Source of the DNA: Janthinobacterium sp. GW456P
GTDB taxonomy: Bacteria > Pseudomonadota > Gammaproteobacteria > Burkholderiales > Burkholderiaceae_D
NCBI RefSeq assembly: GCF_002127655.1
Contig: NZ_NEHB01000005.1
Location: 116,639 to 180,638 of the forward strand
DNA length: 64,000 bases
Direction: 5' to 3'
The position numbers and the translations under genes are program-made. This document shows positions 13,462-28,978 of this stretch, one piece after another (the first letter of the stretch is position 1; each line of letters begins with the position of its first letter). The notes under the pieces are model-generated. The model made no database searches and was not told the origin of the DNA. It was given only the letters and a program-made list of their open reading frames with translations.

Positions 13462-13497
13462 GAGAACGAAATTTATCAAACGATAAATTTCGTTCTC
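13462..13497. terminator. perfect 36-bp palindrome between prpE and the S24 repressor gene
   Basis: A perfect inverted repeat with 16-bp arms and a 4-base loop sits between two convergent genes and overlaps the repressor stop codon. As RNA it would form a very stable hairpin for either direction, but it lacks a T-run. Its central 20 bases (13470-13489) match the site at 14242-14261 upstream of the repressor with one difference, so it may also be a repressor operator. Confidence 0.7.
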
Positions 13498-14218
13498 AGA
13501 TCCGGTCGCTTTCCTTGCGCACGACCCGGCCCACGATCAGGCATTCATTGCCGCGGCACAGCTTGCGGTGGTATTTGCGCTGGTCGGGGTTGTCCGAGGT
13601 CAGCCACCACTCGCCGATATCGCGCGCCATGCGCTTGACCACCGGTTCGCCTTCATAGTTGATGGCAAACACGATGCCGTCGGCCGGCCGGTTGTCGGCC
13701 GTATTGATGATCACCACGTCGTCTTCGTACAGGGCCGGCTCCATGCTTTCGCCCTTGACCTTGATCGCCACCAGTTTTTCAGGGTGGTAGCCATTGCGGT
13801 CCACCCAGCTGCGCGGCACGCTGATGGTGCTGCCGTCGTGCGTTTCCGGTTCGATGGCAAAGCCCGTGATGCCGGCCGACAGGCGCAGCTTCACCTTGCG
13901 GATCGGGTAGAAGCGTTCATCCTCGCCATCATCCACCACCACCGGCCGTGCGCCGCCAAGCGCGGCCAGCGCATGCGCCGCCATGGCCGCCTGGTCGGGC
14001 GCCGCGCCCTGGTCGAAGTACATGCTGTCCAGCTGCAGGTCCGCTTCCAATTTGCGCGCGATCTTTTCGCTGAAGGCGCGCCCTTCGCGGTACGTGGGCG
14101 AGAGGATTTGCGAGATGCGCGCCTCGCTCCAGCCGCTGACGTCGGAGATTTTCTTGCGGGTGTTGTCGTAGTGCTCGCGGATCAGGGCCAGTAGGCGGTC
14201 GCGTCTGTATTGATACAT
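13496..14218 (-). CDS. S24-family self-cleaving phage-type repressor
   Basis: A 240-residue CI/LexA-like repressor. Residues 1-65 form a helix-turn-helix domain (KKISDVSGWSEARISQIL). Residues 105-236 are the S24 peptidase domain. The cleavage site is Ala115-Gly116 in LRLSAGITGF, the nucleophile Ser158 in KGESMEP and the base Lys195 in PVVKRMA. The 37-residue Ser-Lys spacing equals that of LexA. It should be destroyed through RecA during DNA damage and so de-repress the tail cluster. I chose the second of two close ATGs because GGAG lies 6 bases before it and directly abuts the first. Confidence 0.9.
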   Translation of the reverse strand: MYQYRRDRLLALIREHYDNTRKKISDVSGWSEARISQILSPTYREGRAFSEKIARKLEADLQLDSMYFDQGAAPDQAAMAAHALAALGGARPVVVDDGEDERFYPIRKVKLRLSAGITGFAIEPETHDGSTISVPRSWVDRNGYHPEKLVAIKVKGESMEPALYEDDVVIINTADNRPADGIVFAINYEGEPVVKRMARDIGEWWLTSDNPDQRKYHRKLCRGNECLIVGRVVRKESDRI

Positions 14219-14241
14219 ATTCATCTCCACATTAAACCTGA

Positions 14242-14299
14242 AATTTACCGTTTGATAAATTACCAAATGCTTGACTTTAACATTAGCGATTGATAAAGT
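14242..14299 (+). promoter_or_regulatory. operator/promoter region of the tailocin regulatory genes
   Basis: The imperfect palindrome at 14242-14261 (AATTTACCGTTTGATAAATT) lies just upstream of the repressor gene. A related half-site, CGATTGATAAAG, is at 14287-14298. It overlaps the -10 (TAAAGT, 14294-14299) of a rightward promoter whose -35 is TTGACT (14271-14276, 17-base spacing). Repressor bound there would block the rightward promoter. Operator identity is inferred from the repeat and position. Confidence 0.65.
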
Positions 14300-14367
14300 C
14301 TACTTGTTGCTTGTCGCAAACGCACTACAGCGTCTGCTGGCGGGCAGCACCACGGGAGGTCAGGCAG

Positions 14368-14781
14368 ATGTTGAACAGCAGTCAGTCGGTTGAAAGCAGG
14401 GCGGTGCCGCGGCAGGGGCGCCAGTTACAGGGACGCAGCAAGAAGTCGCAGCTGCATATCGCCCGCATCGCGCAGTACATCCGCGAGCAGGGCCAGGCCA
14501 GCGCGGCGCAGTTGTCCGCCTTGCTGGGACTCGACGCGGGTACCATGAGCCGCTATTTGCGCCACATGTGCGGCATGGGGCAGATCCACCTGGCGCAGCG
14601 CCATTGCACGGAGCCGGGCCGCCAGCGCCCCGCCCTGTACGCGCTGGGCGAGCAGGACGACGAGGTCGACGGCTGGGCCGAACTGCCGCCGCAGGTGCGC
14701 CGCACGGCCAGCTGGCCACGCGGTGCGGCGCGCCGCGATCCGCTGGTGGCGGCCCTGTTCGGGCCGGCGCGGGAAAACTAA
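14368..14781 (+). CDS. HTH (winged-helix-like) regulatory protein of the tailocin
   Basis: A 137-residue basic protein. Residues about 30-70 (LHIARIAQYIREQGQASAAQLSALLGLDAGTMSRYLRHMCGMGQIHL) read as a winged helix with a recognition helix at TMSRYLRHM. The C-terminal part is Arg-rich and less ordered. It is the first rightward gene after the repressor and lies behind the promoter at 14271-14299, so it may be an activator or early regulator of the tail genes. The ATG has GGGAGG 8 bases upstream; longer in-frame starts have none. Confidence 0.7.
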   Translation: MLNSSQSVESRAVPRQGRQLQGRSKKSQLHIARIAQYIREQGQASAAQLSALLGLDAGTMSRYLRHMCGMGQIHLAQRHCTEPGRQRPALYALGEQDDEVDGWAELPPQVRRTASWPRGAARRDPLVAALFGPAREN

Positions 14782-14806
14782 GACAAGTATCAACGAGGAG
14801 AAAATC

Positions 14807-15349
14807 ATGGGGTTTGCAGAAAAATTCATCGCATCGCTGTCGTCGCAGAACCTGCGCGACGATGCCGTCCACCACGACCTGGACGTGATCGCGGCGGCCG
14901 CGCTGGCCGGCGACATGGGCGCCTTGCTGTGCCGCGTCAAATACGCGGACGGCACCGTCAGCCGCCTGTTCGAAGGCAATGCCGGCAACCTGGCGCAGCT
15001 GCTGCGCGCCTGGACGGCCGCCGTGACGCAGAAGGGCCGCGCGCGGCGCTGGGTCAAGGCGCACACGGCCTGGGATGCGCAGGCGGCCAATACCTTGTAC
15101 CGCCGCGTGGCCGAGGCATCGCTCGCGCATTGGCTCGACAGCAAATGCAAGGTTTGCCACGGCACGGGCGTCGTCGCCGCCATGCAGGCCGGCGCGCCTG
15201 TCGTCTGCAAGGCTTGCCAGGGCAGCGGCGAAGCGGCGATCAGCTGCTCCGGCGGCTTCGAGCTCGAACGCATCAAGGACATGGTCAGCGAGCTGGAAGG
15301 CATCTTCCAGTCGCACGGCGCCCGCGCCATGCGCCGCCTGGGCCATTAA
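14807..15349 (+). CDS. zinc-finger protein, candidate Q-type antiterminator
   Basis: A 180-residue protein with two DnaJ-like knuckles, CKVCHGTG (Cys114/117) and CKACQGSG (Cys134/137), which together should bind one zinc. Phage Q-family antiterminators carry similar Cys pairs, and the position fits: it is the last regulatory gene, followed by a promoter and then two intrinsic terminators before the first tail gene. The N-terminal 110 residues are helical and give no further match. GAGGAG lies 7 bases before the ATG. The antiterminator role is inference; other zinc-binding phage regulators are possible. Confidence 0.6.
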   Translation: MGFAEKFIASLSSQNLRDDAVHHDLDVIAAAALAGDMGALLCRVKYADGTVSRLFEGNAGNLAQLLRAWTAAVTQKGRARRWVKAHTAWDAQAANTLYRRVAEASLAHWLDSKCKVCHGTGVVAAMQAGAPVVCKACQGSGEAAISCSGGFELERIKDMVSELEGIFQSHGARAMRRLGH

Positions 15350-15367
15350 ATAAGTTTTGCAATATGC

Positions 15368-15396
15368 CTGGCACTGAAAAAAAACGCCCCTACAAT
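15368..15396 (+). promoter_or_regulatory. candidate late promoter of the tail genes
   Basis: CTGGCA (15368-15373) and TACAAT (15391-15396) are 17 bases apart, directly after the Q-like gene. The transcript would have a leader of nearly 290 bases containing two terminator hairpins, the layout expected of a Q-controlled late promoter. Confidence 0.55.
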
Positions 15397-15580
15397 AGAG
15401 TCTCGTTCAGGCAGTAACAGCAGCGACAGCAACACCGCAGTACAGCAGGACCACATGCTTCTCCACTCGTAATAGACGCGCTCAAGGCGCGACACCGATA
15501 GGGGAAATCAGCGCAGCGAACGGCCTTCATGGCCACCATCGCCCATTCCATCCGGCACGGCCTCGCGCCGTCCGGACGCC

Positions 15581-15614
15581 AGCCCGCCGCCTCACCGCGC
15601 GGGCTTTTTATTTT
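15581..15614 (+). terminator. leader terminator 1 of the tail operon
   Basis: A hairpin with arms AGCCCG and CGGGCT, and extra GC pairing inside, is followed by TTTTATTTT. It lies in the untranslated leader ahead of the tail tube gene. Confidence 0.7.
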
Positions 15615-15639
15615 CCCGATACATGGCAGTTCCCCCCTC

Positions 15640-15666
15640 AAGACCGCACCTGTGGTCTTTTTTTTC
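15640..15666 (+). terminator. leader terminator 2 of the tail operon
   Basis: The arms AAGACC and GGTCTT enclose GCACCTGT, and the hairpin is followed directly by a run of Ts. It lies 22 bases before the tail tube ATG. With terminator 1 it would block expression unless RNA polymerase is modified. Confidence 0.7.
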
Positions 15667-15687
15667 ATCCCACGAAAGGTATTACTT

Positions 15688-16893
15688 ATGGCATCGACAG
15701 CAAACGGCATCGACAGCTTGATCGTTATCAGCAAACAAAGCGCCGAAGGCAGCAAGGCCGCTGCCGGCGGCGGCCAGATTTATCCCCGCGTCACGGCCAC
15801 CTTCGACACGGAAGCGGACAAATACGCGAGCGCCGAAATCGACGCCAGCCAGCAGCAGGGCGATACCCGCCTGGGCAATTTCCGCACCACGGGCGCCATC
15901 AAGGCCGAAGCGGCGTGCGGCACCTATGCGCCGCTGATGGCGGCGCTGCTGCGCCGCGACTTCACGGCCGGCGGCGTGGCTGCCGCGCAAACCACCATCG
16001 CGGCGGCCGCCTCCGGCCTGACGCGCAGCGCCGGTTCCTGGCTGGCGGAAGGCTTCCGCGCCGGCAGCGTGGTGCGCATCACGGGCATGACGGCACCGGC
16101 CGCCGCCAACAACGCGAAGAATTTCTTCGTCACGTCGGTGACGGCGACCAACCTGAATGGCCAGTTCATGGACGGTTCGGCCATGATCGTCAAGGCGGCC
16201 GGCGATTCGGTCGGCGTGGCGGCCGTGGGCAAGCGCAGCTTCACTCCCTTGAGCGGCCACACCACCGACTGGTTCACGGCCGAAGTGCAGGACCCGAAGA
16301 TCGGCGTGCACCGCAGCTTCGTCGACCAGCTGGTCAGCAAGATGGATATCGCCGTCCAGCCGAACGGCATCACCAGCCTGGACTTCACGCTGATGGGCAA
16401 GGCGGAAGGCCCGACCACGGCCGTGCCGTACTTCCCCACACCGCTGGCCGCGCCTGGCACCGGCAAATTCTCGGGCGCCACGGCGATGCTGTCCGTGAAC
16501 GGCATCCCGTCGCAGATCTGCACCGGCATGTCCGTCTCGCTCGACGGCCAGGTCAAGGTCGACCCCGTGATCGGTTCCAAATACGCCACGGCAGCCTCGC
16601 GCGGCAAGGTGATGGGCTCGGGCCAGTTCACGGTGCTGCTGCAGGACGCCACCTACCTCGACTACTTCAAGTCCGAGACGGAAATCCCGCTGGCCTACGC
16701 CATGGCATCGGGCACGGCGCCGGCAGCCGACGTGCTGGCATTGGCCATGGGCCGCATCAAGATCACCTCGGCCAAGATCGACGACGGCGAGAAAAACAAG
16801 ATCGTCACCTGCGCCTTCGACGTCCTGCGCTACAAGGGCGCCGATGCGCAGCATGAAGCGACCACCCTGACCATCCAGGACAGCGCGCTGTAA
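15688..16893 (+). CDS. phage tail tube protein
   Basis: A 401-residue major tail protein. It has the Phage_tube_2-like plan: an N-terminal strand region (ASTANGIDSLIVISKQ), the SVVRITGMTAPAAANNAKNFFVTSVTATNL domain, and a FTLMGK / SVSLDGQVKVDPVIGSK core repeated as two related beta domains, which suits a siphophage tube hexamer. The start is the ATG giving MASTANG, after GAAAGGT; the frame upstream runs through both leader terminators and is rejected. It is the first structural gene of the tailocin. Confidence 0.85.
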   Translation: MASTANGIDSLIVISKQSAEGSKAAAGGGQIYPRVTATFDTEADKYASAEIDASQQQGDTRLGNFRTTGAIKAEAACGTYAPLMAALLRRDFTAGGVAAAQTTIAAAASGLTRSAGSWLAEGFRAGSVVRITGMTAPAAANNAKNFFVTSVTATNLNGQFMDGSAMIVKAAGDSVGVAAVGKRSFTPLSGHTTDWFTAEVQDPKIGVHRSFVDQLVSKMDIAVQPNGITSLDFTLMGKAEGPTTAVPYFPTPLAAPGTGKFSGATAMLSVNGIPSQICTGMSVSLDGQVKVDPVIGSKYATAASRGKVMGSGQFTVLLQDATYLDYFKSETEIPLAYAMASGTAPAADVLALAMGRIKITSAKIDDGEKNKIVTCAFDVLRYKGADAQHEATTLTIQDSAL

Positions 16894-16912
16894 GCAGCTA
16901 GCGCCGGCACCG

Positions 16913-16937
16913 GGGCCGCCGTGATGGCGGCCCTTTT
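16913..16937 (+). terminator. terminator-like hairpin after the tail tube gene
   Basis: GGGCCGCC and GGCGGCCC pair across GTGAT, followed by TTTTACTTTTT. It lies between two genes of one operon, so it either trims expression after the abundant tube mRNA or requires antitermination. Confidence 0.75.
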
Positions 16938-16967
16938 ACTTTTTACTACATACAGAAAGCAGCACAC

Positions 16968-17411
16968 ATGAACAACGCACAAAAAATCCAGGCAGGCTTC
17001 GACATCGGCAATATCCACGCGCCTGCCACGCCCGTCACCTTCGACGTGCCCGTCATCTTCGACGCGGACGGCGAAGCGGTGGCCGGCCTGACCATCGTCG
17101 GCAAGAACAGCGAGCAGTACCGCCTGGCCAACAACGCCGTGCGTGCCGAAGGCTACAAGAAATCGGCGCGCCGCAAGACGGCCATCGACGCCTCCACCGA
17201 CGAAGGCGCGGAACTGCTGGTGCAAGCCATCGACGGCAACCAGAAACGCCTGGCGCTGGCCGTGGTCACGGGCTGGTACGGCTTCACCAGCAACGGCGCG
17301 CCCGTGCCGCTCGATGCTGCCTTGCTGGAAGCGGCCTTTGACAAATACCCGACCTGGCAGGAAAAAGTCACCACGGCGCTGGAAAACGAGTCGAATTTTT
17401 TGAAACTCTGA
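16968..17411 (+). CDS. tail assembly chaperone (G-like)
   Basis: A 147-residue acidic protein directly between tail tube and tape measure, the position of lambda G. It contains a beta segment (VTFDVPVIFDADGEAVAGLTIVGKNSEQYR) and a helical C-terminus. Near its end the codons run AAT TTT TTG, giving the slippery heptamer T TTT TTG (17396-17402). A -1 slip continues without a stop into the frame ending at 17755. This recreates the G/GT arrangement of siphophages. The unshifted product stops at TGA 17409-17411. Confidence 0.85.
   Translation: MNNAQKIQAGFDIGNIHAPATPVTFDVPVIFDADGEAVAGLTIVGKNSEQYRLANNAVRAEGYKKSARRKTAIDASTDEGAELLVQAIDGNQKRLALAVVTGWYGFTSNGAPVPLDAALLEAAFDKYPTWQEKVTTALENESNFLKL
17396..17402 (+). 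promoter_or_regulatory. programmed -1 frameshift site (T TTT TTG)
   Basis: The heptamer fits X XXY YYZ in the phase of the upstream chaperone gene, 7 bases before its stop. After slippage the next codon is GAA at 17402, and the new frame is open to 17755. The predicted fusion is about 262 residues, with 145 from the first frame. Confidence 0.8.
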
Positions 17412-17755
17412 CGGCCAGCCTGCTGCGCTACGCCGGGCACCAGTTCGAGCGCGGGGCGCGGGCGGCCGATGGTCACGCCAAGGGCGAGCATATCGATGCC
17501 GCCCGGCGCCATCCTTTGTTCCGCGCGCCGCCCGAAGAGGCAACGCCACCCATGCCGTTCGAGCTGGCCCACGTGTGGGAATGGTTCGCGCAATTGAACC
17601 GCAAGCGGCAGAACGGCATGGCCGTCAACCCCATCGCCAGCACGGAAATCCTCGCCTGGCAAGCGCGCCACGGCATCGCCATCGAGCCGTTCGAGCACCA
17701 GCTGCTGGACCAGCTCGACGCGCTGTTCCTGTCGCACCAGCATGCGGCGGGCTGA
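17402..17755 (+). CDS. tail assembly chaperone, frameshift extension (T part of GT)
   Basis: This frame is read only after a -1 slip at 17396-17402. It adds 117 residues: an N-terminal ETLTASLLRYAGHQFERGARAADGHAKG segment and a helical part (LAHVWEWFAQLNRKRQNGMAV...). There is no ribosome-binding site or good start codon near its beginning; the TTG at 17516 would discard the first third. In lambda the GT fusion binds the tape measure protein while G coats it. The same role is inferred here from position directly ahead of the tape measure gene. Confidence 0.8.
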   Translation, partial: ETLTASLLRYAGHQFERGARAADGHAKGEHIDAARRHPLFRAPPEEATPPMPFELAHVWEWFAQLNRKRQNGMAVNPIASTEILAWQARHGIAIEPFEHQLLDQLDALFLSHQHAAG

Positions 17756-17772
17756 CCCGCATTTTTCAACCC

Positions 17773-17794
17773 GGCCGCCATGCGCGGCCTTTTT
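17773..17794 (+). terminator. terminator-like hairpin before the tape measure gene
   Basis: GGCCGC and GCGGCC pair across CATGC and are followed by TTTTT. It sits 13 bases before the tape measure ATG and occupies the place where a ribosome-binding site would be expected. Confidence 0.65.
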
Positions 17795-17806
17795 AATGGG
17801 CCAGAC

Positions 17807-20800
17807 ATGCCAGAGATAACAGAATTAAAACTTGTCATTGACTTGACGAAAGCGACCGACACCGCGCAGGTACTGAAAGCAATCAGCGAGGCCAGCCTGG
17901 CTGCGGCCGAGGGCATGAAGGCGGCCAATACGGAGGCGGAGTCGTCGGCGCTATTGCTGCGTGCCCTGGCGGAGCAGGCACGCGACGCCACCGCCGCCTC
18001 GAAGGCCATGGGAGCATTGAATAGCGGTGAGGCGAAGTCGCTGGCCGAAGCATTCAAGGTGGTCAATGGCCTGGGCAATGCCTATTCGAGGCTGGCGGCT
18101 TTCCGCGCCGCAGGTAGCACCGCCACAGCTGGTGCAGGCGCCAAATATGGCGCTTTTGCGTTTGATGAACAGCGCCAGGACAAGCTGGACACGGCAGGCA
18201 AAGAGGCTGCCGATGCCAAGGCAAAGGCGGCACCGGCGGCACCGGCGGCGCCGGCGGCGCCCACGCGCAAATACAGTGAGGCGGAGTGGAAGGAAACAGG
18301 GGAATTTGCCGATAAATTGGCGACAAAACTGGAGAAGGCTTTTGGCAATGTCGGTGGGGTTATCGGGAAAATGACTGCTGCCATGGTCGGCTTCGGCAAG
18401 GCGCAAGAGGATATCGACTTCAACTTCGCCAAGGAAGTGAAAGAAGACCCGTCCGAAAAAGGGCAGGAAAAGGCGCAGGAAAACAAGAAGAAGGCCACGG
18501 TCAAGCAGTATCACGACATGGCGACTGCCGCGAAGGGCTTTTTCAAAGAGAAGTCGGCCGGCTATGAACTCATGGAAAAGGTGGAAAAGGGATTCCGCGC
18601 CTATGAATTTGCCATGAATGCCAAGTCGCTGTTTGAAAAGCTGACGAATATCACCCTTGTGACAACGGCGAAAACTGCGGCGACCACGGCCGAGATTACC
18701 AGTACTGCGGCCTCTGTTGCTCCAGTAGCTGCCGCGGAAGCTGCCAAGTCCAGCGCGTATGGCACGTCGGCTCTCGCCGCGTCGTTGGCTGCGCCATTTC
18801 CCGCCAATATCGGTGCATTTGCGATGGTAGCTGGCATGCTGCTGGCAATTGGGGTCGCTGTTTCCGGTGGTGGCGGTGCCGATACTACGGCCAGGGACCG
18901 GCAGGCGGCCACGGGTACGGGTACGGTGTTGGGGGACTCCAGCGCGAAAAGTAATTCGATTGCAAATTCACTGGAAATCATGGAGAAAAACTCCGGCCTG
19001 GGGCTGGCGTATTCCGCCTCGATGGCCTATTCGCTGCGCCAGGTGGCGACAGGCATTGGTGGCTTGGGCGGGCTGTTGGTGCGTAATTCCGGCGTAACTG
19101 GCGTTATGGCCGCGGATAACAAGGGCAGCGCGGCGGCATTTGGTTCTTCCGCGATTGCCGTTGCAATCACTGGCGGCGTCATTGGACTGACACTCGATAA
19201 GCTGACGGGGGGGCTGGTAGGAAAAATCACGGGCGGCATCCTTGGTTCCATCTTCGGTGGTAAAACGACGACGATCGATACAGGCCTGATGTTGAACAAG
19301 GCTACGCTGGACAGCATTCAGGCGGGCGGGGTATCTGCCAGTCAGTACACGGATACCAAAACGTCGGGCGGCTGGTTTTCCAGTGATAAGAAACGTACGG
19401 CCTTGAGTGGCCTTGATCGCGAAGCGAACGACCAGTTCAGCAAAGTTATTCTCGGCCTGTCCGACACCGTCAAGGCTGCGGCCGGTGTGCTTGGGATGGA
19501 CGGTGATGCATTCAATGCGCGGTTGAAGTCCTTCGTGGTCGATATGGGAAAGATATCGCTGAAAGACCTGAAGGGCGACGAGATTCAGAAAGCGCTGGAA
19601 GCCGCATTCTCCAAGCTGGGCGATGATATGGCCAAGTTTGGCGTTGGTGGCCTGGAGCAGTACCAGAAGGTCGGCGAGGGGTATCTGGAAACCTTGGCGC
19701 GCGTTGCGAATGACTACACGCAGGTGTCGGACGTGCTGGCCGTGTTGGGCAAGTCGTTCAACAGCTCCGGTCTTTCCGCCGTGGCCCTGAGCGAAAGCCT
19801 GATTAATGCGGCTGGCGATCTCGATACCCTGACCAGCGGCACCAGCTTCTTCGTGCAGAACTTCCTGAGCGAAGCCGAGCAGATGGACCCCGTCACCAAG
19901 TCGGTGCGCAGCGCGATGGCGGCGATGGGACAGTCCGGCGTGACGACGAGCGAGCAATTCAAAGCGCTGGTGCTGGCACAGGACTTGAACACGGTCGCCG
20001 GCCAGAACATGTATGTGCAGCTGCTTGCCATCGCCGAGCCGTTCAAGAAGGCGGCCGACTATGCGGCCGACCTTTCCGCCGCCACGGGTGAGCTGGCCGA
20101 AGTGAGCAAGACGGCCAGCGAGATCGCCAGCGAGCGCAGGGATATGCAGCAGCAGTTGAACCAGCTGACGCAAAGCGAAGCGCAGTTGCTGGCGGCTCAA
20201 CGCAGTAGCGTCGCCGAAGTCAATCGGGGGCTGTTCGACCAGATACAGGCCGTCAAGGCGGTGACCAGCGCGAAGGACGCGCTGGCCAAGGCCTACGAGA
20301 CGGAATCGGCGGCGGCCAAGTCGGCGCTGGAAAAGTCGAAATCGTGGGTAACGACCTTAAACGGGCTCAATTCCAGCATGGCGCTGGGCGCCCAGTCGAC
20401 GCTGACGCCTGAGCAGAAATATGCGGAAGCGCGGGCGCAGTTCGAGAAAACCCTGGCGGCCGCGAATGCGGGCGACACGACGGCGCAATCGGGGCTGTCT
20501 GCCGCCGAACAGGCTTTTTTGACGGCATCGCAAGTGGTCAATGCGTCCGACGCCCGCTATGCGGCCGATTATGCCCGCGTGGTGGAAGCGAACAAGGAAG
20601 CGTTGAAATGGGCAGCGGCGCAGGTCGATGTGCAGCAGGCCAGCCTCGATGCGCTCAATGCCCAGGTGTCGGGCTTGATCACCATTAACGACAGCGTGCT
20701 GACGGTGGCGCAGGCCATTGCCGGTCTGCGGGCGGCGATGGGCGGTGCGGCAGACCTCGGGGTGCAGTTCAGCAATCCTCCCGTAGTCGCGGCACTGGCC

Positions 20801-21091: not shown

Positions 21092-22557
21092 CCGATGCGC
21101 AATTTCAGGAATGGCTGCAAAGCTCGTCGGCCATCCGCATGGTGCTGATCGAGGCGCAAGTGAATGTGGCCGGCAGCGAGGTGACGCGGTATATCGCTTC
21201 GCGGCCCTACGTGACCGGCCCGCAGGAGGTGCCTGCGAATACCGCGTACCAGCCGCTGGCCAAGGGCGGCCTGGCCTTCACGGAACAGGTCAGTCTGTCC
21301 GGCGAGGCGGGGCTGTCGGGCGGCGATATCGAACTCGATAACGCCGATGGCGCGCTCGATGGCTGGCTGGGCGACGTCTGGATGAACCGGCCCATCAAGG
21401 CCTGGGCCGGCGATCCCTCCTGGCCGCGGGCCGACTTCCGGCTGGTCTTCGACGGCATCATCGCCGACGTGGCCAGTGCGGGGCGCGAGTCGGTCAACCT
21501 GGTGCTGCGCGACAAACTGCAGCGCCTGAATACGCCGATCTCCGAAGCCAAACTGGGTGGCTCGACGCCGAACAAGGACGCCATCCTGCCGATACCGTTC
21601 GGCGAGTGCCACAACGTGGCGCCCTTGCTGACCAATCCCGCCACCCTGGAATACGGCTTTCTCGGCGCGGTGGAATCGACGTTCGAGGTGCGCACGAACG
21701 GCAAGCCGATCGCCGTGGCCTTGAATGACCAGGCGGGCCGCTTCAAGCTGACGACCGATCCGTTTTCCACCACGATCACGGCCAGCGTGCAGGGCGACAA
21801 GGGCGGCGGCTATGCGCCGCGCATCGCCCCGCTGGTGCAGCGCATCGCCACGGCCTACGGCAAGGTGGCCGACCGTTTTACCGCGGCGGACCTGGACCTG
21901 GCCAATCTGGCTGCCTTCGATGCGGCCCACCCGCAGCCGGTGGGGCTGTATGTTGCGGACCGCACGAACCAGGCGCAGGCCATCCAGCAGCTGGCAGCCA
22001 GCGTGGGCGCCCAGGCGGTCATGTCGCGCACCGGCCAGTTGCGCTTGGTGCAGATCGCCTTGCCTGCCGCCGGCGTGCCGCTGGCGATCGGTCCGGAGCA
22101 GATGCGCGAACGCTCGTTGCGTCCCGCGCAGCGCCTGCCGGTGACGGCGGCCGTGAAGATCGGCTTCGACCGCAACTACACGCTGCAGGCGGGCCTGACG
22201 ACCAGTATTCCGCCCGCGCATGCGGATTTGTATGCCACGGAATGGCTGACCGAAACCGTGGTCGACGAGGCGGTGCGCACGCGTTACCGCCTGTCCGACG
22301 ACCCGGTGCAGAGCGATACCTGCCTCAAGACGCGGGCCGATGCCCGCGCGGAAGCGCAGCGGCGCCTGGCCTTGAGCAAGGTGCCGCGCACCATTTACGA
22401 ATTCGATGGAGAACCCGAGATGATGATGCTGGAACTGGGGCAGCCCGTAACTTTGCGCGCTGAACGTTTTGGCTTGCAGGATGGTGTGCCGGGCGTGGTG
22501 GTGATGCTGTCGCGCCTGTGGCTGACGGGCAGAGTGACGGTTGGGGTGCTGGCATGA
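21088..22557 (+). CDS. tail tip/baseplate protein (489 aa)
   Basis: A 489-residue protein encoded directly after the tape measure gene, where siphophage distal-tail and hub proteins lie. It is rich in beta strands. The first 200 residues contain a possible distal-tail-like beta-sandwich (GEAGLSGGDIELDNADGALDGW), while residues 260-400 look like a hub-type domain. No enzymatic motif is seen. It may stand in for several lambda tip genes (M, L, I) that are missing here. Both ends overlap the neighbouring genes by 4 bases. Confidence 0.7.
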   Translation: MTDAQFQEWLQSSSAIRMVLIEAQVNVAGSEVTRYIASRPYVTGPQEVPANTAYQPLAKGGLAFTEQVSLSGEAGLSGGDIELDNADGALDGWLGDVWMNRPIKAWAGDPSWPRADFRLVFDGIIADVASAGRESVNLVLRDKLQRLNTPISEAKLGGSTPNKDAILPIPFGECHNVAPLLTNPATLEYGFLGAVESTFEVRTNGKPIAVALNDQAGRFKLTTDPFSTTITASVQGDKGGGYAPRIAPLVQRIATAYGKVADRFTAADLDLANLAAFDAAHPQPVGLYVADRTNQAQAIQQLAASVGAQAVMSRTGQLRLVQIALPAAGVPLAIGPEQMRERSLRPAQRLPVTAAVKIGFDRNYTLQAGLTTSIPPAHADLYATEWLTETVVDEAVRTRYRLSDDPVQSDTCLKTRADARAEAQRRLALSKVPRTIYEFDGEPEMMMLELGQPVTLRAERFGLQDGVPGVVVMLSRLWLTGRVTVGVLA

Positions 22558-24035
22558 GCGCGATTGTGGGGGAGCGTGACAAGCTCATCATGAACACCGT
22601 GCCGCGCTTCGCGCCGGCCAACGACCGCGTGCTGCTGTTGGCGGCGACTGCACAGGCGTTCAAGGTGGCCGCCACGACTATCGCCGCCCCTGCCAGCATC
22701 GATTTCACGGCCGGCCTGGTGAACATGCAGGGCCAGGTGGCATTCACCGCCAGCAATGCCAGCGTGCTGACGCGCGTCGGCAACGTGGCCACCCTGGCGT
22801 ATGCCGGCATGGTAGGCGACAGTGTGACGATCACGGCGACCATCGTGGCTGACGGTCTGACCTACACGGCCAGCCAGACGGTGAGCAAGATTTTCGACGG
22901 CCTGACGGGAAACTCGGCACGGATCTGCTATAGCAAGACCAGTTTGCTGTCTCTGGCCGGCGTACCGGCGATGCTCAGCACGGAGGGGGCAACATCCTAT
23001 CCGCCGATTGATACCTGGGGCGCCGGCACGGTATGGCAAGGGTCGCCGCCGCTGTTTGGCGCAGGTGAATCGCTGTACCGGTCCGATGGTATTTTCAATC
23101 CGGCCAGCGGTACGACCAAGTGGGCGGCGCCGTATTTGAATGCGCTGAAGGTGGGGCAGTTGAGTGCGATTTCCGCCGATCTCGGCAAAGTTACTGCCGG
23201 CGATATTTACAGCGCGACGCTGCACGGCGGTAGTGGTTATCCCACCAGTGCCTATGCATGGCCAAACAATGGCGGTAGCGGTTTCCATCTGAGCGAGAGT
23301 GGATTGCTGTTTGGCAATCCGGGACTGGGAAAGTATGTGCAGATCGATGCGGCAGGCAATATCTATGCACCTGGCTTTTCCATCATCAATGGCAGTGCTG
23401 TTTTTAGCGGCAACCTGGACGGCGTCAAGGGCACCTTCTCGGGAGAGTTAAGAGCGGCGAAGGGCAGTTTTGCCGGTGTCTTGGATGCAGCCAAAGGAAA
23501 ATTTTCCGGTGAGCTGGACGCTGTGAAAGGTACATTTTCTGGCGACCTTTCATCTGCGCGCGTGTCTGTTGGCACCGCCTCCGCTGCAACGGCATTTTTC
23601 GAGCCCGGCTATCCATCGATTTCCCTGCAGTCGTCCGCATCCGGGGTATTTGTTAAAGCTTCGTCGCTCAGTTCTGCAGCTGTATTTACGGATTTGGAAG
23701 TACTGTTCAAGCACAACGCTCCAGGGTGGCCTGCCGCGCTCCGTATCCGCTCTGGCAGAGTATTTTTTTCAATCGTTTGCACGGCGGTGGTCGACGATCA
23801 ACTGAGCATCTGGTATCGCATCAATGGCGGGGACTGGCTCTGGTTGAGCGGAGTCCAGGAGCGGCAGGACGGCGATGCTCCTGCCGCAACGGTCTACGGA
23901 CTTACTTTGGACATCAACGTGGGTGACACCGTCCAGTTCGGTGTTTCCGGCACCAATGCATATCTTACCGCTGCGAATATGGGCAAGCTTTATGTTAAAC
24001 AATGTCAGGCGATTGTGATCGCAAGGAATTTTTAA
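22554..24035 (+). CDS. tail tip/host-specificity protein with 11-residue repeats
   Basis: A 493-residue protein. Residues 200-285 (AISADLGKVTAGDIYSATLHGG ... IDAAGNIYAPGFSIINGSAVFSG) resemble the C-terminal region of lambda J-type proteins. Residues 289-335 hold four tandem copies of an 11-residue unit of the form DaaKGtFSGeL, likely a trimeric triangular beta-helix or coiled stalk. The last 150 residues form a separate beta-rich domain that could contact the receptor. It overlaps the previous gene by 4 bases and the next by 1. At under half the length of lambda J it is a minimal version. Confidence 0.7.
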   Translation: MSAIVGERDKLIMNTVPRFAPANDRVLLLAATAQAFKVAATTIAAPASIDFTAGLVNMQGQVAFTASNASVLTRVGNVATLAYAGMVGDSVTITATIVADGLTYTASQTVSKIFDGLTGNSARICYSKTSLLSLAGVPAMLSTEGATSYPPIDTWGAGTVWQGSPPLFGAGESLYRSDGIFNPASGTTKWAAPYLNALKVGQLSAISADLGKVTAGDIYSATLHGGSGYPTSAYAWPNNGGSGFHLSESGLLFGNPGLGKYVQIDAAGNIYAPGFSIINGSAVFSGNLDGVKGTFSGELRAAKGSFAGVLDAAKGKFSGELDAVKGTFSGDLSSARVSVGTASAATAFFEPGYPSISLQSSASGVFVKASSLSSAAVFTDLEVLFKHNAPGWPAALRIRSGRVFFSIVCTAVVDDQLSIWYRINGGDWLWLSGVQERQDGDAPAATVYGLTLDINVGDTVQFGVSGTNAYLTAANMGKLYVKQCQAIVIARNF

Positions 24036-24523
24036 TGGGAACAATAATTATTAACAGTGACGGCACTCAAACAAACGAGCGCACAGGAAAGACGATACCG
24101 CCCCAGCCCAGCGAATATCACGAATATGATGTGGCGGCAGACATGTGGATAGATGCAAGAACGCTGGATGGCGTCAAAGTGCGCACTTGGGATCGCATCA
24201 AGGCGGCACGCTGTGCAGCGGAAGCCGCGGATTTCGCGTGTAATGGCGTCGTGTACCAGGCAGACAAGGATCGCATAGTTGGTGCGACGCAGCTCGCCAT
24301 GATGGCGCAGGCTGCCGTCCAGCCATACAGCATTGACTGGACCTTATCAAATAACACCTACCTGACGCTCGATGCTGCCGGCATGATCGCCGTTGGCGCA
24401 GCTCTGGGGGCGCACGTTGCCGAGGCATTCGCCATTGGCCTTCACTTGCGCCAGCAGATCGCGGCAGCGAATTCCTTTGAAGAACTTGAGGCCATTGTTT
24501 GGCCAGCGCGGAGTGAGGTATGA
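24035..24523 (+). CDS. tail protein, DUF4376-like
   Basis: A 162-residue protein that starts in a TAATG overlap, with AAGGA 9 bases upstream. The N-terminus is a short beta region (GTIIINSDGTQTNERTGKTI). From residue 50 a helical domain follows (VRTWDRIKAARCAAEAADFACNGVVYQADKDR), typical of DUF4376 tail proteins often found beside fibre genes. The function is unknown; a fibre-assembly or tip-decoration role is inferred from position. Confidence 0.65.
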   Translation: MGTIIINSDGTQTNERTGKTIPPQPSEYHEYDVAADMWIDARTLDGVKVRTWDRIKAARCAAEAADFACNGVVYQADKDRIVGATQLAMMAQAAVQPYSIDWTLSNNTYLTLDAAGMIAVGAALGAHVAEAFAIGLHLRQQIAAANSFEELEAIVWPARSEV

Positions 24524-25350
24524 ACAACTTGCGCATCATCCATGACAACGCCGGCGACCGGGCAGTGCTGACCGCGTCCAGCCAGGCTGGCGCGCTGGGG
24601 CCGGCCAACCTGCAGCACGAGGGCAAGTATGACGTGCTGCGATCGCTCGGCCAGGCTTTGACCATTACGGCCACCTGGCCCACGCCCGAGATCATCGGCG
24701 GCGTGGTTCTGCCATTTTGCAACCTGACGCCGACGGCGACGATTCGCGTGCGCGGCTACGTCGAGCCAGGGGATGCCGTACCCGATTTCGATATCGGCAC
24801 CGTGCCGGCATGCGAGTACGCGCGCCTGGGCATGTGGAACTGGGGGGCGCTGCCCCTCGGTGTGAATGCATTCAGCTACGGAGGTGGCACGTATGGCCGC
24901 AGCTGGTTCCAGATGCGCAGCGTCAAAAAACTGGTGATCGACCTGGTCGACCCCGATAACCCTGCCGGCTACATTGAGGTTGCGCGCCTGGTGGCCGGCG
25001 CCTGGTGGAGCCCCGAGCAGAACGCATCTTACGGTGCTGGCGTCACGCCAGGCGATACCAGCAGCCAGTACCGCAATGGCGCCGGCGAGCAGAAAGTCGA
25101 GCGCGGTGCGTTGTACCGAAAACTGTCGATTTCGCTCGACCACATGACGCCACTGGATCGAGCCGAGCTGTGGCGCATCGTGCGCGGGAATGGTCTGTCG
25201 CATCCGCTATTCGTCAGCCTGTTTCCGGACAGCGACGACGTCGAGCTCGAGCAAACTCACCAGGTGTATGGACGCCTGGTCAACTTGGCCGCCATCACCA
25301 CGCCATCTTTCCAGGCATATACCACCACCATTGAAGTCGAGGAGCTGTAA
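24520..25350 (+). CDS. tail-associated protein of unknown function (276 aa)
   Basis: A 276-residue protein, overlapping its neighbours by 4 bases (ATGA) and 1 base (TAATG). The first 170 residues look like a jelly-roll module with aromatic residues (LTITATWPTPEIIGGVVLPFCNL and LVIDLVDPDNPAGYIEVARLVAGAWWSP), as in carbohydrate-binding or collar-type domains. The C-terminal 90 residues contain HMTPLDRAELWRIVRGNG and end in a strand. No enzyme motif is seen. It could be an adaptor between tip and fibre. Confidence 0.6.
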   Translation: MNNLRIIHDNAGDRAVLTASSQAGALGPANLQHEGKYDVLRSLGQALTITATWPTPEIIGGVVLPFCNLTPTATIRVRGYVEPGDAVPDFDIGTVPACEYARLGMWNWGALPLGVNAFSYGGGTYGRSWFQMRSVKKLVIDLVDPDNPAGYIEVARLVAGAWWSPEQNASYGAGVTPGDTSSQYRNGAGEQKVERGALYRKLSISLDHMTPLDRAELWRIVRGNGLSHPLFVSLFPDSDDVELEQTHQVYGRLVNLAAITTPSFQAYTTTIEVEEL

Positions 25351-27335
25351 TGACTGATGCTTTTAAATACGGCCAGCAGGATCTGATCTATCAGCTGAAC
25401 CAGTTGGCCAAGGCGAAGGATATTGTCGATATCCCGCAGAATTCCGCGGCGGCCGCCGCGAGCGCTGCCGCTTCGGCGGCTGCAGCCGCTGCGGCGGCAC
25501 AGTCGGATGGCACTGCTGCCATCGCTGCGTCAAAGGCTGAGGCTGCCCTCAAAGCGCTTGAGGCGCGCTATCTTGGCGCCAAGGCGCTACCGCCAGACGT
25601 CGACAATAATGGCGGTGCGCTGCTGGCCGGCGCGACCTACTGGGACACGGTGCTGAACGGTGGTTGCCTGCGCGTATTCCAGGCTGGCGCCTGGGTGACG
25701 ATACCGGCCAACGTGGCGTCGCAAATCAGCAGCACGCCGGTGGGCGGGATTAGTGCAGCGAATGTGCAGGCGGCGTTGAATGAGCTTGAGCTGAAAAAGG
25801 CGGCAACGACCAGCCTGGCCAAGGTGGCCATTTCCGGCAACAAAGTTGATGTTGGCCTGGGGAATGTAGACAATACCGCCGACGCGTCAAAACCAGTCAG
25901 CGCCGCGGTGGACAGCGCGTTGTCATTGAAAGCCAATGCATATAACGCGGTGTTTGGTGGTGTCATCGGCGGGGATTTCTCCAATGCGATTCATGATGCC
26001 CGTGTGCTGTTGCGTACGACAACAGCGAATGGTCCCACTATTGTTGGCGCGATGCCTAATGGTACCGGTACGGTCGCGCAATTCAATGCCTATGCCGACG
26101 ATAACCCGCAGAATACCTCCTTGGCCTCGCTGGGCGTCGTCAGGGCTGATAGTGTCAGGCTGTCTTCTGCGAAAATTGGTACGGGAAGCTTTCTTCCATT
26201 GAAATTTTATACCGGTGATACGAACACCATGACTCTTGGTATTAACGGTAATGTGAGCGTGGGAGAGCAGCGTCCGGTTGCCGGCTATCGGTATCTGGAT
26301 GTGGTGAACGAGGCCAGCGGAACGGGCAATTGTTCGATCATGAGGCTGATTACAAAGGCGACATCGGGGGCCGGATCCACGTCGGCGGATATGTTGAAGA
26401 ATTCCAACGGTCAGTTTGCGATTATTAACTACGAGCCTAGCAGTGCCGGAACCATTTATTTCAAAACCAGTACGTCAGACGCGATGCTGTTTCCTGGCGG
26501 ATTTCAGGTCAATGCGCCTGGCCAGAATACAGTGGCGGTCAAATCCGCAGGGGGCTACACAGCGCTGGCGCTGGACGCGGCGCAGGGCCAGGCATCGTAT
26601 ATTTTTAGTTATAACAATGCGATCGAGCATGGGCGTGCTTGGTTTGATAATAATGCAATACTGGGTGGTTTCAATATCGCAGTAAAGCGAGCAGGTGTTT
26701 TAACTGCCATACTTTGCGTGCAAGGAGATTACGTCTACCCATTCGAAGACAATGTGATTGGGTTGGGCAGCTTCAACCGGCGCTGGACAAATGTATACGC
26801 TTCTTCTGGTGCGGTTCAGACATCCGACGCCAGGCATAAATCGCCAGTCCTTGCCATGTCTGAGCACGAAATTGCGGCTGCAAGCCAATTGGCCAGAGAA
26901 ATAGGTAAGTATCGCTTCCTGGATGCAGTGAAGGAGAAGGGCGCTGCAGCGCGTCAGCATGTTGGCATGACGGTGCAACGGGCAATCGCTGTCATGGAAA
27001 GTCACCAGCTCGATCCGCTCGCCTACGGCTTTATTTGCTATGACGAGTGGGGCGAAAAAACCACCGAGCACCCCGAGATCCAGCCGCCGGATCAAATGCC
27101 CCCACCTGTTGTGAACCACCATGAAGCCATGGGCGCTGGTGAGGCCTTCGACGAAATGCTCACTGTGGGAAATACCGCCCCTGGCGCGGTTCAAGCTGCT
27201 CGAACGGTAGTCCAACCCGCTGGCAGTATCTACAGTTTCCGTCCTGATGAATTAAATCTGTTTATCGCGCGTGGCCAGGCCGCCCGCCAGGATCAGCTGG
27301 AACTGCGGCTTGCTGCACTTGAGCTTGCTGGCTAG
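25350..27335 (+). CDS. tail fibre with C-terminal S74 intramolecular chaperone
   Basis: A 661-residue trimeric fibre candidate. Residues 30-75 form an Ala-rich coiled region, residues 100-490 are beta-rich with GLGNVDNTADASKPVS, a common fibre repeat, and residues 491-661 form an S74-type chaperone. The autocleavage motif TSDARHK has its Ser at residue 492. After folding, the chaperone should be released between Thr/Ser491-492. This gene most likely fixes the killing spectrum. Base composition in the middle (25.9-26.8 kb) is more AT-rich than in the tube gene, as expected of a diversified receptor-binding region. Confidence 0.87.
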   Translation: MTDAFKYGQQDLIYQLNQLAKAKDIVDIPQNSAAAAASAAASAAAAAAAAQSDGTAAIAASKAEAALKALEARYLGAKALPPDVDNNGGALLAGATYWDTVLNGGCLRVFQAGAWVTIPANVASQISSTPVGGISAANVQAALNELELKKAATTSLAKVAISGNKVDVGLGNVDNTADASKPVSAAVDSALSLKANAYNAVFGGVIGGDFSNAIHDARVLLRTTTANGPTIVGAMPNGTGTVAQFNAYADDNPQNTSLASLGVVRADSVRLSSAKIGTGSFLPLKFYTGDTNTMTLGINGNVSVGEQRPVAGYRYLDVVNEASGTGNCSIMRLITKATSGAGSTSADMLKNSNGQFAIINYEPSSAGTIYFKTSTSDAMLFPGGFQVNAPGQNTVAVKSAGGYTALALDAAQGQASYIFSYNNAIEHGRAWFDNNAILGGFNIAVKRAGVLTAILCVQGDYVYPFEDNVIGLGSFNRRWTNVYASSGAVQTSDARHKSPVLAMSEHEIAAASQLAREIGKYRFLDAVKEKGAAARQHVGMTVQRAIAVMESHQLDPLAYGFICYDEWGEKTTEHPEIQPPDQMPPPVVNHHEAMGAGEAFDEMLTVGNTAPGAVQAARTVVQPAGSIYSFRPDELNLFIARGQAARQDQLELRLAALELAG

Positions 27336-27358
27336 CCATCTACTTGTTACCACTTCAA

Positions 27359-27378
27359 CCCGCCTCGGCGGGTTTTTT
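27359..27378 (+). terminator. terminator between fibre and lysis genes
   Basis: CCCGCC and GGCGGG pair across TC and are followed by six Ts. It ends the structural part and precedes the holin ATG by 25 bases. Confidence 0.8.
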
Positions 27379-27403
27379 CATTTCCACCACCTGAAAGGCA
27401 ATC

Positions 27404-27832
27404 ATGGCCCTCGAAACCACCGCCGCCGGCGGCGCATTGATCAAACTGTTTGGCGTGCCCGTGCTGGCCGGCGCCGCCGCCACGTCGCTGGGCTTTATGT
27501 TCATGTGGCCCCAATCCACGAAGGAGGCATTTATTCGTTTTTGTTCCAGCATCATCATTTCCACCTTTCTCGGCCCGCTGCTCGTGGCGGCCGTGCTGTC
27601 GTGGTGGCCCAGCCTGTTCGACAGTGCGAAAACCGTGGCGGGCCTGTATGGCGGCGACCCGGCCACGGGCTTCTTGTTTATCGCCGCGCCGCTGATGGTG
27701 GCGGCCGGCTTGCCCGCGTGGTGGGTATTGGGCGCCAGCGTGCGCTGGTTCGACAAGCGGCGCGGCAAGGATATCGGCGAACTGGCGGTCGATGCGGCCG
27801 CCGTCGTCAAGGATGTGCGGGGCGTGCTGTGA
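27404..27832 (+). CDS. holin-like membrane protein
   Basis: A 142-residue protein with three hydrophobic segments (about residues 14-33, 45-66 and 87-108) and a charged C-terminus (RWFDKRRGKD). It lies directly before the endolysin gene, the standard holin position. It would form the inner-membrane lesion that releases endolysin and tailocin particles. Its stop overlaps the endolysin GTG (GTGA). Confidence 0.8.
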   Translation: MALETTAAGGALIKLFGVPVLAGAAATSLGFMFMWPQSTKEAFIRFCSSIIISTFLGPLLVAAVLSWWPSLFDSAKTVAGLYGGDPATGFLFIAAPLMVAAGLPAWWVLGASVRWFDKRRGKDIGELAVDAAAVVKDVRGVL

Positions 27833-28344
27833 CGGGCGCGCAATTGATGCAGATCATGCCGCTGGCCGGCCGCCGCGCTACGCTGTTCCTGGCGCCCCTG
27901 AATGCGGCGATGGCCGAGTTCAGCATCGATACGCCGCTGCGCCAGGCGGCGTTCCTGGCGCAGGTGGGCCACGAATCGGGACAGTTGCGCTACGTGCGCG
28001 AGTTGGCCAGCGGCGCTGCCTATGAAGGTCGCGCGGACCTGGGCAATGTGATCGCCGGCGATGGCGTGCGCTTCAAGGGGCGCGGCTTGCTGCAGGTGAC
28101 GGGGCGCGCCAATTATGCGGCGTGCGGCGTGGCGTTGGGCCTGGACCTGCTGGCGGCGCCGCAGTTGCTGGAGCAAACGACTTTTGCGTGTCGCTCGGCC
28201 GGCTGGTTCTGGCAATCGCGCGGGCTGAACCGGTTGGCCGATGCGGGCGACCAGGAACGGGTGACGCGCCATATCAACGGTGGCGTCAACGGCCTGGCCG
28301 AACGCCTGGCCTTGTACCGCGTCGCGCGCAAGGTGCTGGCATGA
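27829..28344 (+). CDS. GH19 endolysin
   Basis: A 171-residue chitinase-like (GH19) muramidase/lysozyme. The catalytic Glu lies in QVGHESGQLRYVRE, and the substrate-cleft motif GVRFKGRGLLQVTGRANY is intact, followed by the C-terminal ITRHINGG-type segment VTRHINGGVNG. It has no signal peptide, so release depends on the holin. The GTG overlapping the holin stop is the likely start; an ATG six codons later is the alternative. Confidence 0.9.
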   Translation: MTGAQLMQIMPLAGRRATLFLAPLNAAMAEFSIDTPLRQAAFLAQVGHESGQLRYVRELASGAAYEGRADLGNVIAGDGVRFKGRGLLQVTGRANYAACGVALGLDLLAAPQLLEQTTFACRSAGWFWQSRGLNRLADAGDQERVTRHINGGVNGLAERLALYRVARKVLA

Positions 28345-28667
28345 AGCCGTCGTTGAGCATTGTGGCCATGCTGCTGTTGCTGGGGGCAGCCGTGTTTTGC
28401 GCGCAACGCTGGGGCCGTGAAACGGGCCGTGCCGCGTGCGCGGCGCAAGTACTCGACGTGCAAGCCGTGTTGCGGCGCCAGAGCCAGGCGCTCGATACGA
28501 TGCGGGAAGAGGGCGCACGCCGGTCGGCGCGGGTACGCCAGGCGTTGGCCACGGCGCAGACCGGGCAGGCGGACGCGCAAGCGGCTGCGGCGCGCATCCT
28601 GGCGCTGCAACCCGCAGGCGGTGCCTGCCTGGCCGCCGAGGCGCTGATCGCCAGCGAAATGCCATGA
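28341..28667 (+). CDS. Rz-like inner-membrane spanin
   Basis: A 108-residue protein with one N-terminal membrane segment (LSIVAMLLLLGAAVFCA) and a long, charged helical periplasmic part (VLRRQSQALDTMREEGARRSARV...). This is the usual architecture of an i-spanin. It overlaps the endolysin by 4 bases and the next gene by 4 bases. Confidence 0.75.
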   Translation: MKPSLSIVAMLLLLGAAVFCAQRWGRETGRAACAAQVLDVQAVLRRQSQALDTMREEGARRSARVRQALATAQTGQADAQAAAARILALQPAGGACLAAEALIASEMP

Positions 28668-28978
28668 GGCCGCTGCGTGAGCGCGTGGGGCGGCAGAGCG
28701 CGTGGTGGCGGGCAAGGAGGCGAGGTGTCAAAAGTGTCGCCAAGGTATTGTTGGCGAGTCTGCTGACCGGCTGCGCGGCATGCGGTCCAGCATCCCAGGT
28801 GGAGGCGTGGCAGGTGAGCGCGCCATGCATAGTCACGCGCCCCGTCGCGCCCGTCTTGCCGGCGGTGCCATCCCACGGCATCTTCGAGCAAGTACAGGCC
28901 TTGCTGGCGCGCGAGCACTTGCGGGCCGCCCACGTGCTTCAGCTGGAAGCGCTGCTCGATGCCTGTAGTGGCATCTAA
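28664..28978 (+). CDS. Rz1-like outer-membrane spanin lipoprotein
   Basis: A 104-residue protein with a signal sequence ending in a lipobox (LLASLLTGC), so the mature protein would be lipidated at the Cys. The following part is Pro-rich (TRPVAPVLPAVPSHG), as in o-spanins. Unlike lambda Rz1 it is not nested inside Rz but follows it with a 4-base overlap, and its predicted mature part is longer than usual. It is the last gene of the tailocin. Confidence 0.75.
   Translation: MRPLRERVGRQSAWWRARRRGVKSVAKVLLASLLTGCAACGPASQVEAWQVSAPCIVTRPVAPVLPAVPSHGIFEQVQALLAREHLRAAHVLQLEALLDACSGI

Follow-up and report, generated by a model that had tools for sequence, protein, structure and literature searches.

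Gene content of the locus between prpE and the NCS2 permease gene

We analysed a stretch of 64,000 nucleotides (the window, to which all coordinates below refer) from the 6.27 Mb, 78-contig genome of Janthinobacterium sp. GW456P, in which a locus of phage-tail, regulatory and lysis genes lies between a prpE-like acyl-CoA synthetase gene and an NCS2 permease gene. The locus extends from the start of the repressor gene (13496) to the end of the Rz1-like gene (28978) and comprises a repressor gene of the S24 type, genes for two regulators, an operon for a non-contractile tail and a lysis cassette, with the repressor on the minus strand and all other locus genes on the plus strand. An earlier note, written from the DNA letters alone, had described it as an F-type tailocin, and both the limits and the prpE/NCS2 position that it gave were recovered (PF00501 and PF00860 flanks; open reading frames (ORFs) of the locus). 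The features, with the matches or signals on which each assignment is based, are as follows.

11520..13451, plus strand: flanking gene, prpE-like acyl-CoA synthetase (PF00501, 6.1e-76)
13496..14224, minus strand: CI/LexA-type repressor with a C-terminal S24 self-cleavage domain (PF00717, 5e-19; phrog_4, 7.6e-33)
14225..14367, no strand assigned: divergent operator/promoter region, with a promoter-like TTGACT-17-TAAAGT at 14271-14299 (promoter scan)
14368..14781, plus strand: winged helix-turn-helix (HTH) regulator, 137 residues (PF09012, 4.3e-5, above the cut-off)
14807..15349, plus strand: zinc-finger-like protein, 180 residues (phrog_127, E 0.001, longer ORF; PF00684, 3.4e-4, below the cut-off)
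15350..15687, plus strand: tail-operon leader, ~340 bp (promoter-like site at 15368-15396, conserved blocks, two terminator-like hairpins)
15688..16893, plus strand: major tail tube protein, 401 residues (PF18906, 6.7e-28; phrog_290, 2.7e-34)
16968..17755, plus strand: tail assembly chaperones G (16968-17411) and GT (PF23812, 2e-16, for the 3' part)
17807..21091, plus strand: tape measure, 1,094 residues, or 1,103 if counted from the start of the longest ORF (phrog_7740, 1.6e-51)
21088..22557, plus strand: putative tail-tip protein, 489 residues, placed by position (phrog_8917, function unknown, 4.5e-61)
22554..24035, plus strand: J-like tip/fibre protein, 493 residues (phrog_32308, 1.7e-12)
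24035..24523, plus strand: DUF4376 tail-fibre-associated protein, 162 residues (PF14301, 3.4e-18; phrog_2837, 6.1e-18)
24520..25350, plus strand: tip protein, 276 residues (phrog_8610, 6e-33)
25350..27335, plus strand: tail fibre with a C-terminal S74 chaperone domain (PF13884, 9e-5; phrog_7121, 3e-51)
27404..27832, plus strand: putative holin, 142 residues, with three hydrophobic segments (phrog_1024, function unknown, 2.3e-21; hydropathy; position before the endolysin gene)
27829..28344, plus strand: GH19 endolysin, 171 residues (PF00182, 6e-9; phrog_181, 2.8e-65 on the longer ORF)
28341..28667, plus strand: Rz-like spanin, 108 residues (N-terminal hydrophobic segment and position; no Pfam match)
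28664..28978, plus strand: Rz1-like lipoprotein, 104 residues (LLTGC lipobox; no Pfam match)
29321..30820, plus strand: flanking gene, NCS2 permease (PF00860, 1.7e-103)

The tail genes form a siphophage-like set of tube, frameshifted chaperones, tape measure, tip and fibre, with no sheath family among the matches. GT is encoded through a −1 frameshift site, TTTTTTG at 17396-17402, which is in the correct frame. No head, packaging, integration, replication or sheath gene was recognised by Pfam or PHROG matches among the locus ORFs scanned, and the set of tail, regulation and lysis genes devoid of head, packaging or integration genes described previously was borne out by these profile matches. 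Stray PHROG labels were limited to ‘head and packaging / virion structural’ on the fibre (3.7e-4) and the DUF4376 protein (4e-3), both far below the main match of each protein, and ‘transposase’ on the HTH ORF (7e-3), the weakest match there. An Rfam scan of 13000-29500 gave no match, and no convincing flanking direct repeat was found as an attachment site, with low identity only among the 20 of 35 families listed. The tip required a correction, as four genes (489, 493, 162 and 276 residues) lie between the tape measure and fibre rather than the two reported, and the suggestion of unusually few tip genes was inaccurate, the compact tip order being common also to the prophage class described below. 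The locus is predicted to carry its own lysis cassette. A profile identifies the endolysin, while the holin and spanins are assigned solely from their topology and their place in the gene order; the GTG start of the endolysin gene overlaps the holin stop.

Copies of the locus in the genus and their head-bearing relatives

Across a sample of 40 Janthinobacterium genomes, relatives of the 489-residue protein were present in 30; relatives of the tube were also present in 30, but the two sets coincide only in part. The 489-residue search returned 50 rows, which reduced to 46 stretches after removal of the row for the window itself and of two short fragments, with two rows sharing one stretch. These stretches divide into 23 of the window's class (24 with the window) and 23 of a prophage class. 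The window and 22 of the 23 window-class stretches share one chromosomal place, the remaining stretch (G003) lying elsewhere, so that the synteny check proposed in the earlier note finds the head-less locus at one place in 23/40 genomes and displaced in one. Local rearrangements are seen at this place: G026 and G027 lack prpE and border on the neighbour beyond it in the window (G027, whose far side is visible, has lost the NCS2-bearing stretch too), and in G033 and G030 prpE is ~3.9 kb away.

Queries for terminase, portal, head-morphogenesis and scaffold genes matched none of the 24 locus copies. The distance from repressor to tube is 1.44-1.48 kb in 23/24 copies (1.68 kb in the displaced copy) and therefore leaves no room for head genes. 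Contiguous head genes in related strains, named earlier as a sign of recent deletion, were thus found in 0/24 copies, and the head-bearing relatives are separate prophages elsewhere. The head-gene check of the prophage class covered the 12 of 23 copies for which 20 kb upstream was examined (the other 11, several on short contigs, fell outside it), and all 12 carry terminase and portal genes (8 by tblastn, 4 by PHROGs). No repressor, prpE or NCS2 match was found in the 23 prophage-class copies.

The two classes share part of their tail. The order tape measure, 489-residue gene, J-like region and 276-residue gene recurs in 17/23 prophage-class copies, the six remaining stretches being cut off no more than about 2.3 kb from the 489-residue gene. 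Sibling prophages (L049 with L113, L057 with L116) show this order, with 489-residue proteins 55-87% identical, but differ from the locus in their terminase, portal and head genes and in their sites. They also differ in the tube, for which prophage copies were matched in 13/23 (76-78% identity in twelve and 25% in one), compared with 88-100% among the 24 tailocin copies (92-100% among copies at the site and 88% for the displaced one). Chaperone G is more uneven, being 94-99% identical to that of the window in 16/23 copies. One further copy is at 86% and six are at 45-46%, with tubes 97-100% identical in these six. The slippery TTTTTTG is in frame in 24/24 locus copies and also in the 13/13 prophage copies with a G match (19 examined). 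Tape-measure lengths, counted across copies from the first possible start codon, fall at 1,059-1,114 residues in 11/24 tailocin copies and 1,513-1,574 in 12/24, with one split, and at 1,571-2,157 in the 19 prophage-class copies examined. Tailocin tape measures are therefore generally shorter than prophage ones, with a single overlap in size (1,574 residues, the displaced G003 copy).

The presence in the genus of prophages with the same tail order is a point in favour of a degraded prophage, from which a recent deletion took the head, packaging and integration genes and whose remainder is drifting. Those with a similar tail module, however, carry terminases of different families (phrog_2, phrog_9 and phrog_15), which argues against the tailocin being just a fragment of one such prophage. 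The window genome's only 489-residue homologue is the tailocin locus itself.

Selection, divergence and module exchange

Locus genes are under purifying selection. The median ratio of nonsynonymous to synonymous divergence (dN/dS) is 0.097 for the repressor (31 alleles, no internal stop), 0.161 for the HTH regulator, 0.110 for the zinc-finger-like protein, 0.079 for the tube and 0.084 for G. The corresponding values are 0.253 for the tape measure, 0.159 for the 489-residue protein, 0.165 for the 276-residue protein, 0.109 for the holin, 0.132 for the endolysin and 0.203 for Rz, alongside 0.077 and 0.087 for the flanking prpE and NCS2 genes. Median dS of the repressor (0.28) and tube (0.23) is similar to that of prpE (0.28; NCS2, 0.38). 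By this pattern, a chassis of regulatory genes and tube is inherited with the chromosome, and the tape-measure and tip modules are exchanged.

From gene identities, the lack of head genes in 24 copies and purifying selection, the F-type reading is well supported at sequence level. We conclude, with a probability of about 0.87, that the locus encodes an F-type tailocin, non-contractile and siphophage-like, that has been domesticated and retained at a single chromosomal site across much of the genus. The shared head-less state, the purifying selection and the prpE-like divergence of repressor and tube argue that it is not a recent deletion. A degraded prophage is also at odds with the same head-less arrangement in 24 copies, the low dN/dS and the conserved frameshift site and leader, and we regard it as largely refuted and very unlikely. 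As for the decay of frameshift and lysis genes that the earlier note had raised against an active locus, the frameshift is kept throughout and the lysis genes are mostly conserved, apart from a stop in one Rz alignment.

Several observations weigh against the domesticated tailocin. The L045 tape measure is split into two overlapping frames (677 + 473 residues) by either sequencing error or decay, and this would fit a degraded prophage. One Rz alignment has an internal stop, and dN/dS of Rz1 reaches 0.320 (7 copies). Median dS is higher for the 489-residue gene (0.52), endolysin (0.47), 276-residue gene (0.92) and tape measure (1.02) than for the repressor and tube, so that these downstream modules were exchanged rather than purely inherited. 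The antiterminator role of the zinc-finger-like protein is drawn from low-scoring matches and that of the holin from a match of unknown function. The AlphaFold2 model of the 489-residue protein (18 sequences) has a predicted local distance difference test (pLDDT) score of 43.9 and no usable fold. The window's genome (G000) also holds two large-terminase genes elsewhere.

These terminases, and the exchange of G/GT/tape-measure and tip modules between copies, count in favour of a mobilisable element or phage satellite, one that would spread by making tails or with heads borrowed from another prophage. Against such an element, no integrase, replication or packaging gene was recognised in the locus, 23/24 copies share one place, repressor and tube diverge like prpE, and the families listed gave no convincing flanking repeat, making it extremely improbable. 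The G000 terminase genes themselves, at C56:54009-55718 and C8:85460-87151, match phrog_2 (4.3e-81 and 1.7e-80) and probably belong to other prophages.

Repressor, operator region and tail-operon leader

The repressor sequence contains an Ala-Gly, the Ser of GESMEP and the Lys of VVKR, which we take to be the self-cleavage residues. GATAAA/TTTATC-type repeats surround the promoter-like site in the divergent operator region, and the spacer between repressor and HTH genes shows strong conservation in 31 alleles drawn from the tailocin and the stripped class (see below). The S24 repressor and this conserved operator region raise the possibility of SOS-type control. The winged-HTH gene, whose longer ORF matches phrog_142 and phrog_1687, is presumed to be the first gene of the inducible operon, and the zinc-finger-like protein that follows weakly matches Q-type antiterminators.

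The leader hairpins lie at about 15582-15604 and 15640-15659, and the -10-like block of the promoter-like site is present in 18/24 leaders by pattern match. At least one hairpin followed by a T run, with an energy under -14 kcal/mol, was found in 24/24 leaders compared with 10/240 Markov-random sequences, and at least two in 22/24 compared with 10/240. A window-wide terminator scan listed only the second leader hairpin, the loop of the first being too long for that scan, and its two finds compare with 2.3 expected from shuffles. Since a Q-like protein is encoded just upstream of a hairpin-bearing leader, the most economical model would be antitermination within the leader.

An AT-rich palindrome of the TTTATC-N4-GATAAA type is found in several alleles at 13470-13500, between the convergent prpE and repressor genes. 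It resembles the operator repeats and is a candidate terminator or extra operator.

Predicted receptor-binding proteins of the tail tip

Variation between strains is concentrated at the tip. In the 23 copies where both regions are visible, the largest ORF between the 489- and 276-residue genes (the J-like gene) falls into 13 clusters, and the largest ORF after the 276-residue gene (the fibre gene) falls into 14. The J-like and fibre genes are thus hypervariable, which we interpret as diversified receptor-binding genes on a conserved chassis. The longer ORF of the J-like protein matches phrog_9413, ‘tail protein and host specificity’ (5.3e-5), while neither it nor the 489-residue protein matched a lambda-type tip family in Pfam or NCBIfam (the J-like protein gave one unrelated, sub-threshold Pfam match). 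A profile of the 489-residue protein found no match among PDB sequences. In the annotated phage collection there was no match for the 489- and 276-residue proteins, and only distant ones for the tape measure and tube. For the 276-residue protein, an AlphaFold2 model (pLDDT 62.8) gave 33 Foldseek matches at E ≤0.001 (best 3.2e-5; template modelling score to the query ~0.3), which hint, with moderate confidence, at a CBM32/discoidin-like beta sandwich and a candidate sugar-binding module.

The tail could have a use other than killing relatives, for example acting on other hosts, or arise only as a by-product of SOS lysis. The concentration of diversity in receptor-binding genes is what recognition of variable bacterial surfaces would produce, and leaves such a use very doubtful.

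A stripped allele at the same site

The sites that do not hold the tailocin include a second arrangement. In seven genomes, prpE and NCS2 are separated by ~2 kb containing an intact repressor, the HTH gene and the 142-residue putative holin, with no other locus gene found at the site by tblastn. In two more genomes (G020 and G023), these three genes lie next to prpE, and NCS2 is either damaged or undetected. These stripped alleles (L125-L131, L163 and L165) have no tail, antiterminator, endolysin or spanin genes. The tally over the 40 genomes is 23 tailocin, one tailocin elsewhere, nine stripped, seven neither (G002, G011, G021, G022, G028, G031 and G037) and none with both; among the ‘neither’ group, the contigs of G028 and G031 stop 0.6 and 3.3 kb beyond prpE, and prpE had no match at the limit used in G002 and G037. 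Pristine empty sites where the tailocin is missing were considered and rejected, as nine of these sites hold the stripped allele.

The putative holins of the stripped alleles form their own clade with support of 100/100. Six prophage holins also group as a clade, whose position among the tailocin rows is weakly supported. Divergence between the classes is greater for the holin (dS 0.71) than for the repressor (0.29) or prpE (0.28), and dN/dS of the holin within classes is 0.143 (stripped) and 0.059 (tailocin). On the best trees the allele class changes six times for the repressor, five each for prpE and NCS2 and once for the holin; these counts hold for the best tree only, with weak forks open in 13/28 (repressor), 8/13 (prpE) and 6/17 (NCS2), and come from a tree set without L163 and L165, which joined a later holin tree. 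The repressor tree includes two well-supported mixed pairs (L031 with L127, L032 with L126). We also rejected a single, recent deletion in the tailocin allele as the origin of the stripped one, because the stripped holin is a separate, deep clade. As the flank and repressor trees mix the alleles and the holin tree separates them, the simplest reading suggests two old alleles exchanged through recombination in shared flanks. We offer tentatively, at somewhat less than even odds, the fuller proposal that prpE-NCS2 is an ancient two-allele weapon locus, in which a producer and a mutually exclusive stripped allele persist trans-species and are swapped via the flanks, the latter keeping an SOS-controlled putative holin with a function of its own. 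The stripped holin may alternatively have been imported from an unsampled phage lineage. This two-allele site is the most surprising part of the analysis.

Distribution and comparison with known tailocins

Relatives of the tube occur in 32/294 genomes of the family, 22 of them in Janthinobacterium; outside the genus the best is 75% identical, in one genome, and the other nine are 30-37%. Close relatives of the HTH gene are confined to the genus, and the zinc-finger gene is found in 5/399 genomes sampled across the order, the window's included. In a viral catalogue, 11 of the 21 loci found with the tube are 92-100% identical; of their contigs (L175-L184, L187), nine start ≤0.1 kb from the HTH gene and two at the repressor. 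They appear to be the tailocin filed as a provirus and cut at its edge, so that viral catalogues would count this tailocin as a virus. Six of the other ten catalogue loci, with tubes of 69-74% identity, have head-gene matches. One catalogue entry of 66.7 kb, IMGVR_UViG_2932410948_000001 (L179, L226, L244), holds the tailocin and a second 489-residue homologue (85%) within ~45 kb, marking a related element nearby, and two Duganella genomes (L102, L104-L106) have 489-residue relatives at 63-79%. Downstream of the locus, a 1,680-residue protein with Ser/Thr kinase, AAA, GAF and GGDEF domains is encoded at 30855-35897 on the minus strand, and a tRNA-Leu (taa) at 38154-38240, ~9 kb from the locus, is a possible integration point for neighbouring elements.

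The F-pyocins are related to lambda and combine a head-less tail with repressor control and lysis genes; their regulators and site differ from those of the Janthinobacterium locus. Monocin has a Gram-positive producer and derives from another phage lineage. Carotovoricin is contractile, whereas no sheath family is found in the Janthinobacterium locus. A lambda-type tip family is likewise missing here by Pfam and NCBIfam, a search of profile families rather than of the F-pyocin proteins themselves.

F-type pyocins of Pseudomonas aeruginosa resemble the locus in having a non-contractile tail without head genes, repressor control and lysis genes. The class is described in the available portions of two sources (PMC12090994, PMC10811719). 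Rhizoviticin of Allorhizobium vitis, in the portion available, is likewise F-type, with a LexA-like repressor, tail and lysis genes and no head genes; its SOS dependence and antagonism have been shown experimentally (PMC10811719). Rhizoviticin is also presented there as a chimera of two prophages with replication-type genes in its regulatory part (PMC10811719), none of which were recognised in our locus. The same portion treats monocin of Listeria monocytogenes as a further F-type tailocin (PMC10811719), and the R-type carotovoricin of Pectobacterium is described, in the part available, as a tailocin with genus-wide exchange of tail fibres (PMC13195805). F-type members are rare among described tailocins, the F-pyocin and monocin being named as the other exceptions beside rhizoviticin in the available portion of one source (PMC10811719), to which newer papers may add. 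Literature on Janthinobacterium or Oxalobacteraceae tailocins, prophages and F-type tailocins, judged mostly by titles and abstract openings, contained no description of the locus, which is apparently a candidate for a new, independent F-type lineage.

Proposed mechanism and biological meaning

By analogy with known tailocins, the locus probably produces particles and kills rival strains. DNA damage would lead to self-cleavage of the S24 repressor, opening the promoter at 14271-14299 for synthesis of the HTH and zinc-finger regulators. The Q-like zinc-finger protein would then allow polymerase starting from ~15396 to pass the terminators of the leader and transcribe the tail operon. By homology, the tube, frameshifted chaperones and tape measure would build the tail, its length set by the tape measure, and from their position and variability the 489-residue, J-like, 276-residue and S74 proteins would form a strain-specific tip. 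The holin, GH19 endolysin and Rz/Rz1 would burst the producer and free the particles, which would attach to sensitive relatives at the cell surface and depolarise these cells.

The locus is a candidate further F-type lineage in Betaproteobacteria. Since parent-type prophages are still present in the genus, domestication could be studied stepwise, through head loss, tape-measure shortening and a fixed place, and the two tape-measure size classes (~1,100 and ~1,530 residues) make the relation of tail length to function testable with natural alleles. The stripped allele raises the question of why a tail-less version with an intact putative holin persists; if the two-allele proposal is true, the site would be a trans-species producer/non-producer polymorphism. 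Janthinobacterium inhabits soil, freshwater and the skin of fish and amphibians, according to the available portion of one source (PMC12618000), and kin killing may therefore affect who colonises.

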